A stretch of DNA of 64,000 nt, taken from assembly GCA_946536145.1 (NCBI GenBank), contig CAMNEA010000001.1:1-64000 (forward strand). The letters run 5' to 3'. Positions 1 through 7,761 of this stretch are shown here, piece after piece; position 1 is the first letter of the stretch; each line of letters opens with the position of its first letter. A model generated the notes under the pieces. The model was not told where the DNA came from. It made no database searches and worked only from the letters and a program-made list of their open reading frames with translations. A program made the translations under genes and the position numbers. This DNA is from an uncultured Butyrivibrio sp. Lineage in GTDB: Bacteria; Bacillota; Clostridia; Lachnospirales; Lachnospiraceae.

Positions 1-765
1 AAACAGCTTGGCAGGACGCCGCATAGATCTGTTTCAAGACAGTTTTAAACCAAATAGAGGCGAAAGCGTCGTCCTAGGATTACAAAACGGCATGGCAGGA
101 CGCCGCATAGATCTGTTTCAAGACAGTTTTAAACCAAATTGAGACGAAAGCGTCGTCCTAGGATTACAAAACGGCATGGCAGGACGCCGCATAGATCTGT
201 TTCAAGACAGTTTTAAACCAAATCGAGGCGAAAGCGTCGTCCTAGGATTACAAAACAGCATGGCAGGACGCCGCATAGATCTGTCTCAAGACAGTTATAA
301 ACCAAATTGAGACGAAAGCGTCGTCCTTGGATTACAAAACGGCATGGCAGGACGCCGCATAGATCTGTTTCAAGACAGTTTTAAACCAAATCGAGGCGAA
401 AGCGTCGTCCTAGGATTACAAAACGGCATGGCAGGACGACGGATAGATCTGTTTCAAGACAGTTTTAAACCAAATCGAGGCGAAAGCGTCGTCCTTTGAT
501 TACAAAACGGCTTGGCAGGACGCCGCATAGATCTGTTTCAAGACAGTTTTAAACCAAATCGAGGCGAAAGCGTCGTCCTTAGATTACAAAACGGCATGGC
601 AGGACGCCGCATAGATCTGTTTCAAGACAGTTATTAACCAAATTGAGACGAAAGCGTCGTCCTAGGATTACAAAACAGCTTGTCAGGACGCCGCATAGAT
701 CTGTTTCAAGACAGTTATTAACCAAATCGAGGCGAAGGCGTCGTCCTTGGATTACAAGACGGCTT
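1..765. repeat. 84-bp direct tandem repeat array, nine full copies, cut by the window edge
   Basis: Full units start with GGCAGGACGCC at 10, 94, 178, 262, 346, 430, 514, 598 and 682, an exact 84-bp period. Bases 1-9 are the tail of a further unit, so the array continues to the left. Copies differ at only a few positions. Each unit has an outer inverted repeat, AGGACGCCGC against GCGTCGTCCT, which is 10 bp with one mismatch. Inside it lies a second short stem, GACG or GGCG against CGTC, around an AAAG loop, just before the outer 3' arm. There are no spacers, so this is not CRISPR. The period is a multiple of three, but stops interrupt every frame in several copies. A structured RNA array, or a DNA-level satellite, fits better than a protein. 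Function unknown. Confidence 0.95.
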
Positions 766-1148
766 GTTTGCGGCATTTTTGAATCCTTGATTCAAAAATG
801 CATACCATTCAAAATATTTCCGTCGATAACCTAATTGTGTAGGAGATAATCTCCCTTTTTTTCTTAAGCGACTTATTTAACGAGCCCTGTATGGTGCGAG
901 CGGCGGGAACCCATGGGGGCGGCGGGCCGGCGCGCCAGGGCGACAGACATTGACATACTGACTTGTCAGTCACCCACAATATATGGCGAAAGACCTTTTT
1001 TTTCGGCGCATGCAGCTTATAAGCTCTATAGTGCATACCCAAAGAATTTTTTCAAAAAGCAAAAAAGTGTTAATAAGCACTTGTGGCAGACTCATATGAA
1101 ACAAAATGGAAATTAAGTCATCCAAAAGGCAATCTGTCAGGCGACTCA
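766..1148. other. intergenic region without a convincing gene
   Basis: Between the repeat array and the pseF promoter there is no ORF with family-like sequence; the short ORFs listed here are compositionally random. It holds a 13-bp perfect hairpin at its left end, a GC-rich pocket around 899-946 with several restriction-site-like palindromes, and a small inverted repeat ACTGACTTGTCAGT at 957-970. No tRNA or rRNA was recognised. Confidence 0.6.
773..801. repeat. perfect 13-bp inverted repeat at the end of the 84-bp array
   Basis: GCATTTTTGAATC (773-785) and GATTCAAAAATGC (789-801) are exactly complementary with a 3-nt loop. It starts eight bases after the last repeat unit. There is no T-run after the 3' arm, so it is not a classical terminator for plus-strand transcription, but it could end or protect a transcript of the array. 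Confidence 0.7.
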
Positions 1149-1915: not shown

Positions 1916-2071
1916 ATGGTTACTGTTCAGACAGAAATGCGCACTCTGCTGCGCATTTCGTGAGAAAATGATTCAGTGGTGAGCGCATTCCTTCGACGAA
2001 GTCGAACTTTAATGAATGCGCGAATACGTTACTGGAGCGAGCTGTATGCGAGTGAACAGTAACAGTAAATG
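1911..2071. mobile_element. 145-bp MITE-like element with 11-bp terminal inverted repeats and 8-bp target duplication
   Basis: The core 1919-2063 starts with GTTACTGTTCA and ends with its exact complement TGAACAGTAAC. It is flanked on both sides by AGTAAATG (1911-1918 and 2064-2071), the signature of a target-site duplication. Internally it folds into a 10-bp hairpin (GAAATGCGCA with TGCGCATTTC) and a two-part hairpin (GCGCATTC with GAATGCGC, then TTCGAC with GTCGAA), giving a cloverleaf-like shape. No transposase is encoded. The left duplication contains the pseF stop codon. The first 23 bases recur at 20732. Confidence 0.75.
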
Positions 2072-5502: not shown

Positions 5503-7761
5503 ATGGAAAAGATTAAAGGTTATGTAGATCACATTATATATAAGGGAAATGAGACCGGGTTTGCCGTGCTGAGCCTCGTCATCGGAGATGAGGAGACGGT
5601 TGTCACCGGTACCTTTCGGGACGTCGGTGTCGGCGACACCTTAGAAGTCAGCGGGGAATATGTCACCCATCCCGTGTACGGGCACCAGTTCAAGGCGTCG
5701 GAATATACAATAGTTATGCCGGAGGACACCGTATCCATGCAGAGGTATCTCGGCTCCGGGGCCATCAAGGGTGTGGGTGAAGCGCTTGCGGCGAGGATTG
5801 TCAGGAAGTTCGGCGACGAGACCTTTCGAGTAATAGAAGAAGAACCCGAGCGCCTTGTGGAGATAAAGGGCATAAGTGAGAGGATCGCCATGAGCATCTC
5901 CATGCAGATGGCCGAAAAAAGAGAGATGCGCGATGCGATGATCTTTCTTCAGAAGTATGGCATAGGTGACGCTCTTGCGGTCAAAATATACAATACCTAC
6001 GGCAGCAGGATATATTCTGTCATCAGGGAGAACCCCTACCAGCTTTCGGATGATATAAGCGGAGTCGGATTTCGGACTGCTGATGAGATCGCTGAGAGGG
6101 TCGGCATCGGAGTTGACTCGGATTTCAGGGTAAGGAGCGGCATTCTTTATACACTGCTTCAGGCAGCCGGTGACGGCAACACGTACCTGCCTATGGATAT
6201 ACTTGTGAGCAGGACGCTCGCTGTGCTCCAGACGAGACCTGATTACTATATAAGCGATGACTTGGTCAGAATTCAGATCGGCAATCTTGCCGTGGATAAA
6301 AAGCTTGTGGTCAAGGGCGACGGAGATGTTTACGCGGCGTCCTACTACTATGAGGAGCAGGGCTGTGCAGCCATGCTCGAAGACCTGTGCGTGACGGAAG
6401 AGATGTCTTCAAAAGAGAGGCAGGATCTTCGCGAGCAGATCCTTAAGAACCAGACAGAAGGTGGGATGCAGCTTGACAAAAGACAGCTCGACGCCGTGAC
6501 AGAGAGCGTGACTAACGGAGTAGTGATCATTACCGGTGGTCCTGGCACAGGTAAGACCACAACGATAAATGCCATCATCGGATACTACAGGCGCATGGGC
6601 ATGGATATAATGCTCGCGGCACCTACGGGAAGGGCCGCCAAGAGGATGACCGAGGCCACAGGCTATGAGGCGAAGACCATCCACAGGCTCCTTGAGGTGT
6701 CGGGACAGGTGGATGATGATGAAAAGGGCAGGACAAACGCAGCTCATTTTGAGAGGAACAGAGAAAATCCGCTTGAAGCGGATGCTGTGATAATAGACGA
6801 GATGTCAATGGTTGACATTCATCTGTTCTATGCGCTGCTTAAGGCTCTTTTGCCCGGAATGCACCTTGTGCTGGTGGGAGACAGCTCTCAGCTTCCAAGC
6901 GTCGGACCGGGGCAGGTACTGAGAGACCTGATAGACAGCGGCAGGTTTCCAACGATCTATCTGCAGAAGATATTCAGACAGGCCGAGAAGAGCGACATTG
7001 TCATGAATGCGCACAGGATCCATGACGGCATTAAGCCTGTGCTTGACAATAAAAGCAGGGATTTCTTTTTCCTTGAAAGGGACAACAGCGGCGTGATCTA
7101 CAAGCACATGATAGAGCTTATAAGGGATAAGCTTCCCTCCTACGTAAAGGCTAAGCCCTACGACATACAGGTGCTCACGCCCATGAAAAAGGGACCTCTT
7201 GGGGCGGCGGAGCTTAACGGAGTTCTGCAGAAATGGCTCAACCCGCCGGATCCTTCCAAAAAAGAGTATGCATACAAGGATCATGTTTTTCGCGAGCAGG
7301 ATAAAGTCATGCAGATAAAGAACAATTACCAGATAGCCTGGGAGGTGGTCGGCGATTACAATGTCCCGATAGATTCCGGAACCGGTGTTTTTAACGGAGA
7401 CATGGGCATCATAAAGCAGATAAATGAGTACTCCCAGGAGATGGTGGTGGAGTTTGACGAGAACAAAAGAGTGAGATATCCCTTTTCCGATCTTGACGAG
7501 ATCGAGCTTTCCTATGCCATAACAATTCACAAATCCCAGGGGAGTGAGTATCCGGCAGTTATTCTGCCGATCCTTGGAGGACCCAGGATGCTGCTCGGGA
7601 GAAACCTCCTCTATACAGCGGTCACGAGAGCCAGGAATACGGTCTGCATCCTCGGCAGCAGGGAGACGGTTTTTGAAATGGTGGACAATGACCAGCAGCT
7701 TCGGAGATATACGGGATTAAAGGACAGGATAAAAGAAATAAATGACATATCGGATAAGTGA
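5503..7761 (+). CDS. recD2: RecD-like DNA helicase (RecD2/YrrC family)
   Basis: An SF1B 5'-3' DNA helicase, acting in repair and replication restart without RecB or RecC. Order: N-terminal OB-like region (MEKIKGYVDHIIY), helix-hairpin-helix repeats (GAIKGVGEALAARI, VEIKGISERIA), Walker A GGPGTGKT at residues 345-352, Walker B DEMSMVD near 432, and the C-terminal 2B/UvrD-like motif YAITIHKSQGSEYP near 670. The ORF track begins at a TTG at 5470, but that lies inside the preceding terminator; ATG 5503 gives the family N terminus and 752 aa. No ribosome site is visible before 5503, so initiation may be weak or leaderless. It overlaps comFC by 20 nt. Confidence 0.9.
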   Translation: MEKIKGYVDHIIYKGNETGFAVLSLVIGDEETVVTGTFRDVGVGDTLEVSGEYVTHPVYGHQFKASEYTIVMPEDTVSMQRYLGSGAIKGVGEALAARIVRKFGDETFRVIEEEPERLVEIKGISERIAMSISMQMAEKREMRDAMIFLQKYGIGDALAVKIYNTYGSRIYSVIRENPYQLSDDISGVGFRTADEIAERVGIGVDSDFRVRSGILYTLLQAAGDGNTYLPMDILVSRTLAVLQTRPDYYISDDLVRIQIGNLAVDKKLVVKGDGDVYAASYYYEEQGCAAMLEDLCVTEEMSSKERQDLREQILKNQTEGGMQLDKRQLDAVTESVTNGVVIITGGPGTGKTTTINAIIGYYRRMGMDIMLAAPTGRAAKRMTEATGYEAKTIHRLLEVSGQVDDDEKGRTNAAHFERNRENPLEADAVIIDEMSMVDIHLFYALLKALLPGMHLVLVGDSSQLPSVGPGQVLRDLIDSGRFPTIYLQKIFRQAEKSDIVMNAHRIHDGIKPVLDNKSRDFFFLERDNSGVIYKHMIELIRDKLPSYVKAKPYDIQVLTPMKKGPLGAAELNGVLQKWLNPPDPSKKEYAYKDHVFREQDKVMQIKNNYQIAWEVVGDYNVPIDSGTGVFNGDMGIIKQINEYSQEMVVEFDENKRVRYPFSDLDEIELSYAITIHKSQGSEYPAVILPILGGPRMLLGRNLLYTAVTRARNTVCILGSRETVFEMVDNDQQLRRYTGLKDRIKEINDISDK

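Follow-up and report, generated by a model that had tools for sequence, protein, structure and literature searches.

The tandem array that opens the window (the whole stretch of 64,000 nucleotides analysed, G000:C1:1-64000) is one locus of a non-coding, intergenic repeat family present at 12–13 places in the same genome. This family is probably a new, species-specific set of BIME-like extragenic palindrome clusters, which spread and were then expanded and homogenised locus by locus. BIME-like clusters are best described from Proteobacteria, where their formation is attributed to a RAYT transposase. Here, clustered palindromes occur in a probable Gram-positive anaerobe of the gut or rumen; their spacing is rigid, no RAYT gene linked to them was found, and the sister species searched show no trace of them. 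They provide a second case for asking how palindrome clusters arise, spread and turn over, and the genus is well suited to such a study since its other species carry intergenic repeats of different kinds (a 112-bp array in one, and the dispersed repeat RE2 in about half of the genus). Nothing on repeats in Butyrivibrio, the probable genus judging by gene content, was found in the literature searched.

The array reported at the left edge by the first-pass annotation is real. Tandem Repeats Finder (TRF) places it at positions 1–763, with a period of 84, 9.1 copies, 93% matches, no indels and a score of 1316, and it is the sole tandem array that TRF detects in the 64 kb. Since the array meets the start of contig C1, the nine units are a minimum, and because it begins at base 1 it probably breaks the assembly at this point (2.9 Mb in 112 contigs, with an estimated completeness of 73%). 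Its parts are as follows.

1–763, + strand: tandem array, 9.1 × 84 bp (TRF), truncated where the contig begins
14–21, + strand: first visible right arm, GGACGCCG; the remainder of its core is off the contig
68–105, + strand: core 1, GTCGTCC-N23-GGACGCCG
106–151, + strand: 46-bp spacer from core 1 to core 2; the spacers of the window array are ~90% alike
152, 236, 320, 404, 488, 572 and 656, + strand: starts of the cores that follow core 1
404–441, + strand: core with right arm GGACGACG, a perfect palindrome; hairpin fold with z −3.25
740–762, + strand: terminal half core, where the array meets the tail of RE2
758–803, + strand: RE2 tail, GGCTTGTTTGCGGCATTTTTGAATC..GATTCAAAAATGCAT, 98% identical to L081 (contig C2) 5217–5262

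In each unit the left arm reads GTCGTCCy and the right arm rGGACGmCG; together with the loop between them they span 38 bp, and the 46-bp spacer comes next. The arms are nearly invariant across loci and the spacers are variable. The inverted repeat described earlier (AGGACGCCGC with GCGTCGTCCT, one mismatch) is found in nearly every unit, while the inner stem CTGTTTCAAGACAG, also described, exists but has been lost from most window units. On its right side, the array is followed by the 3′ tail of RE2 and then by the region upstream of a cytidylyltransferase gene (1211–1915, Pfam CTP_transf_3), with MreB-like and flagellar-type genes beyond. The window array is tied to nothing in these neighbours, and the proposal of a single-locus satellite associated with glycan and flagellar genes is contradicted by the occurrence of the family in 12–13 unrelated intergenic places. 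A motif, GGCGGGAACCCATGGG, is common to two intergenic regions that lie beside arrays, at window positions ~903–918 and at L016 ~5977–5992.

BLAST within the genome revealed further arrays on contigs C3 and C17, the latter diverged, and the pattern GTCGTCCN{15,35}GGACGCCG has 21 matches in the genome against none for the reversed control. Covariance models (R1 and R2) were built from the 84-bp units, antisense self-matches being left out of the counts. With R2, 42 matches to a whole unit or part of one (E<1e-3) were obtained in 13 stretches distributed over 12 contigs (C1, C2, C3, C16, C17, C20, C28 with two, C60, C66, C71, C83 and C105). Over 80–135 bp the end of C83 matches the start of C60 at 96–99% identity; both may belong to one broken array, which is why the number of arrays is given as 12 or 13. 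Core-to-core intervals are 84 bp in 31 of 34 cases and 83 bp in the other three. Solitary 84-bp units were not found in the genome; all complete arrays lie between ORFs, most have at least two units, and several carry a core at both ends (core-spacer-core). Some arrays are at contig ends and others are mid-contig, and the presence of diverged arrays inside other contigs excludes an assembly artefact. A role as a cis-regulatory element was rejected given the mixed orientation of the arrays relative to neighbouring genes, both directions being seen.

Sequence similarity is distributed unevenly between and within loci. Within an array, units share 92% identity (86% when the C1 array is left out), compared with 60% between arrays and 27% for shuffled units; spacer identity is 82–90% within arrays and falls to 56% between them. 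High identity within arrays combined with low identity between them is a sign of homogenisation inside each locus. In addition, the C1 and C3 arrays end on their right side in the same half core joined to the same RE2-type tail, a shared junction that suggests copying of a composite piece, and at least seven arrays have an RE2 copy no more than 300 bp away, forming repeat mosaics.

These patterns point to a mechanism in which units would multiply and be homogenised in place, by slippage or by unequal recombination between repeats, and composite pieces (array plus RE2 tail, as at C1 and C3) would have reached further intergenic positions as copies, possibly with the help of a trans-acting transposase that targets the hairpins. 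Neither a target duplication nor a terminal repeat has been established for the element as a whole. In the cell, the arrays would be mainly mobile DNA, tolerated because they avoid genes. By analogy with E. coli BIME-2, secondary effects may arise from hairpins formed in RNA at the ends of transcripts or from proteins that bind the palindromes, and the candidate roles would then be those known for BIMEs, namely gyrase or IHF binding and effects at transcript ends; binding of Pol I is a further BIME characteristic. An odd feature of the family is that unit length is fixed to within one base despite a difference of 40% between units of different loci; compensated indels or plain inheritance of the period could be the cause.

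The family appears to be confined to this genome. Unit searches of relatives, as proposed in the first-pass annotation, found no array in 36 congeners by BLAST, and the exact pattern and the covariance model found none in all 78 other species of the genus. With laxer filters, model R2 detected no array in 19 of the nearest congeners (best sister match E 0.049), nor was any array found in a sample of 145 genomes from the order, which included a few congeners. The only match of R1 in the genus, in G009 (E 0.096), falls in apparent coding sequence and was rejected as a distant homologue. Pattern scans of 84,980 GTDB species gave only chance-like matches; the exact two-core pattern matched eight times, singly, in unrelated taxa mostly known for high GC, and these matches are judged to be chance. 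No similar DNA was found in phages, plasmids or IMG/VR, and a horizontal source in phages or plasmids was accordingly rejected.

Comparison of gene neighbourhoods provides further information. The gap between oad and glgX measures 109–530 bp in 12 sister species versus 1598 bp in this genome, where it holds an 84-bp array, so the extra sequence was probably gained here. Four relatives possess the gene that neighbours the C2 array and show no comparable array next to it. In three sisters the oad-glgX gap holds a different element, which forms a 112-bp tandem array of 2.8 copies in G002 (L104 ~66–383, positions within the gap sequence) and is present as one copy each in G003 and G016, with TIR-like ends TGATATAnGGATT. 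GlgX proteins of sister species are 90–93% identical. Had the family arisen after the sisters branched off, less divergence between the arrays of one genome would be expected; even so, the sisters carry no such arrays. Rapid evolution, disappearance from the sisters, or acquisition of a family that was already diverse could each account for this.

The folding of the units bears on whether the arrays act as RNA. Since arm orientation alternates, each right arm has two possible partners, the left arm behind it across the core loop (22 nt in the 38-bp core, range 17–22 nt, with stems of 8–13 bp) and the next left arm beyond the 46-bp spacer; the arms themselves, of 8–9 nt, form no hairpin of their own. 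The 'conserved fold' announced earlier stands for the arms, which are conserved across loci, but not for the typical window core, which forms no hairpin (z −0.28). A single 84-nt window unit folds no better than its shuffles (z −0.9), and two 63-nt arm-spacer-arm stretches of the window fold moderately (z −2.1 and −3.2). At eight other loci core hairpins in the loop register reach z −2.4 to −7.1, and pairing in the spacer register ranges across loci from z ~0 to −6.4. A C-G/U-A exchange occurs at the loop-side end of the arms (core columns 8–30; 13 and 10 of 27). In the spacer register, 20 cells are changed on both sides, a number equalled in 1 of 500 shuffles, and the covariation score is higher than in any of the 500 shuffles or of the slid controls, with the caveat that related sequences can beat such shuffles without any structure. 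Moreover, most stem pairs never vary and are thus uninformative about pairing. For these two reasons, covariation constitutes moderate evidence for palindromy and no proof of RNA. A tandem structured RNA, in which the arrays would be transcribed as a string of hairpins serving as sRNA, sponge, transcript stabiliser or terminator, agrees with the core hairpins of the eight other loci and with this covariation. It is nevertheless decidedly improbable, considering the two mutually exclusive pairings, the unfolded core typical of the window, the inconsistent orientation to genes and the failure to find a shared promoter. Nor does the window array match any Rfam family, at gathering score or at E≤1, in line with the earlier statement that no known RNA family is involved.

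Near-invariant arms flanked by spacers that diverge to 56% identity would also be expected of phased protein-binding arrays, the arms being the site of a putative DNA-binding protein and all sites lying on one face of the helix, with a nucleoid, gyrase or partition-like role. Because 84 bp corresponds to eight turns of B-DNA (8.0 turns of 10.5 bp), and the intervals hardly depart from this value, this explanation is a live rival; the location of the arrays between genes, in both orientations, is consistent with it as well. However, no candidate protein is at hand, the period may be mere inheritance from a common ancestor, and absence from all close sisters speaks against an essential chromosome function, so that phased binding is considered unlikely. 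A bolder version, which we regard as a long shot, is that a putative species protein recognises the inverted arms every eight turns and that selection holds the 84 bp while spacers change almost freely, the sites being lineage-specific, chromosome-organising or defence-related, and unrelated to REP/RAYT. The period is also divisible by three, and some arrays have one open frame, as a live or decayed coding repeat of 28 codons (VV[PL]E..K...GRRK...) would require. Yet the open frame differs from array to array, the three 83-nt units break the frame and stops are not depleted (p 0.41–0.82, alignment columns permuted, best frame); in the window array no ORF runs through, stops being present in all six frames; the long ORF that the first-pass annotation named as a refuting observation was not seen. 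A coding repeat was rejected on the permutation test and the broken frame, and is given very little credence. Finally, the repeat-spacer layout with 38-bp repeats and the position of several arrays at contig ends could suggest a CRISPR-like array or an assembly artefact. Both were rejected: spacers within each array are copies of one another (82–90% identical, none unique), consistent with the absence of spacers noted earlier for the window array; arrays differ between loci, and several are mid-contig. This last explanation is scarcely credible.

The reading as BIME-like palindrome clusters rests on comparison with known repeats. REPs are extragenic palindromes of 20–40 bp with stems of 5–13 bp, present in more than 100 copies per genome, that carry an unpaired GTAG or CGTC tag at one end and a loop of 4–5 nt (CGTC) or 2–20 nt (GTAG) (PMC3733652, PMC2817692). 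GTAG REPs are linked to a RAYT gene flanked by repeats (PMC3733652, PMC2817692), and Firmicutes are not among the phyla given for CGTC repeats (PMC3733652). The 38-bp core, the stem of 8–13 bp and the position between ORFs agree with this description, but the loop of 17–22 nt is outside the CGTC range and at the limit for GTAG, CGTC lies inside the paired arm with no unpaired tag, and 42 unit matches in a genome ~73% complete compare with more than 100. Given the missing tag, the long loop, some 40 copies and the lack of a detected RAYT, assignment to REP proper was rejected. Only one Y1_Tnp transposase was found in the MAG (73% complete); it is the TnpA of an ordinary IS200/IS605 pair without flanking cores (G000:C4:21364-21732), with a TnpB-like ORF on one side and an RE2 copy, instead of arms, on the other, which lends no support to a RAYT link.

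The closest likeness is to BIME-2 and modular BIMEs of E. coli and Stenotrophomonas, in which regularly spaced palindromic elements alternate in orientation and modules are arranged head to tail (PMC2817692). Like these, the 84-bp arrays are intergenic and species-specific, with alternating inverted arms in head-to-tail modules of 83–84 bp, in few to many copies. They differ in having homologous spacers of constant length and arms of 8–9 nt without their own hairpin, that is, they are not built from REP elements (PMC2817692), and in the lack of a detected RAYT and the probable Firmicute host. With CGTC-tagged REPs, including Neisseria dRS3, they share the CGTC motif, the palindrome, the extragenic location, the absence of a dedicated transposase and the mosaics with other repeats, but CGTC is in the stem, the loop is 17–22 rather than 4–5 nt and the units are always clustered (PMC3733652). 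CRISPR arrays have the same repeat-spacer-repeat layout ending in a repeat, with unique spacers instead of mutual copies. Mycobacterial interspersed repetitive units (MIRU/VNTR) are intergenic tandem units of 50–100 bp at a dozen or more loci, with copy numbers that differ from strain to strain. As dispersed intergenic minisatellites at about a dozen loci the 84-bp arrays resemble them, but they have a palindromic core, strong divergence between loci and no small ORF in the unit.

Other repeats were encountered as well. RE2 is an intergenic hairpin element of ~123–147 bp with the layout CCCGCACC.GCTGCGGG-TTTCGTGAGAACATGAT-GCAAACAAGCC..CGACG.AGTCG..GGCTTGTTTGC-hairpin, and copies are located at window 758–803 (partial, without Rfam match), L048:227-373, L082:4623-4900 and L084. 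Within the genus, 38 of the 79 genomes contain it, some with more than 20 copies, and it is possibly a genus-wide structured repeat. A look-alike with other stems is present at window positions 1925–2065 (GCGCACTCTGCTGCGC-ATTTCGTGAGAAAATGAT-...CGACGAAGTCG...GAATGCGC), as if the layout and the TTTCGTGAGAA motif had been kept and the stems changed. A tandem family with a 74-bp period (L016:5331-5598 and L082:3963-4158) is common to the C17 and C20 loci, where its orientation relative to the 84-bp arrays is opposite. Lastly, two adjoining 34-bp tandem arrays at L047:10282-10497 appear to be reverse complements of each other (TGAGTC..GGGGACGTTACAGTTCGACTC).
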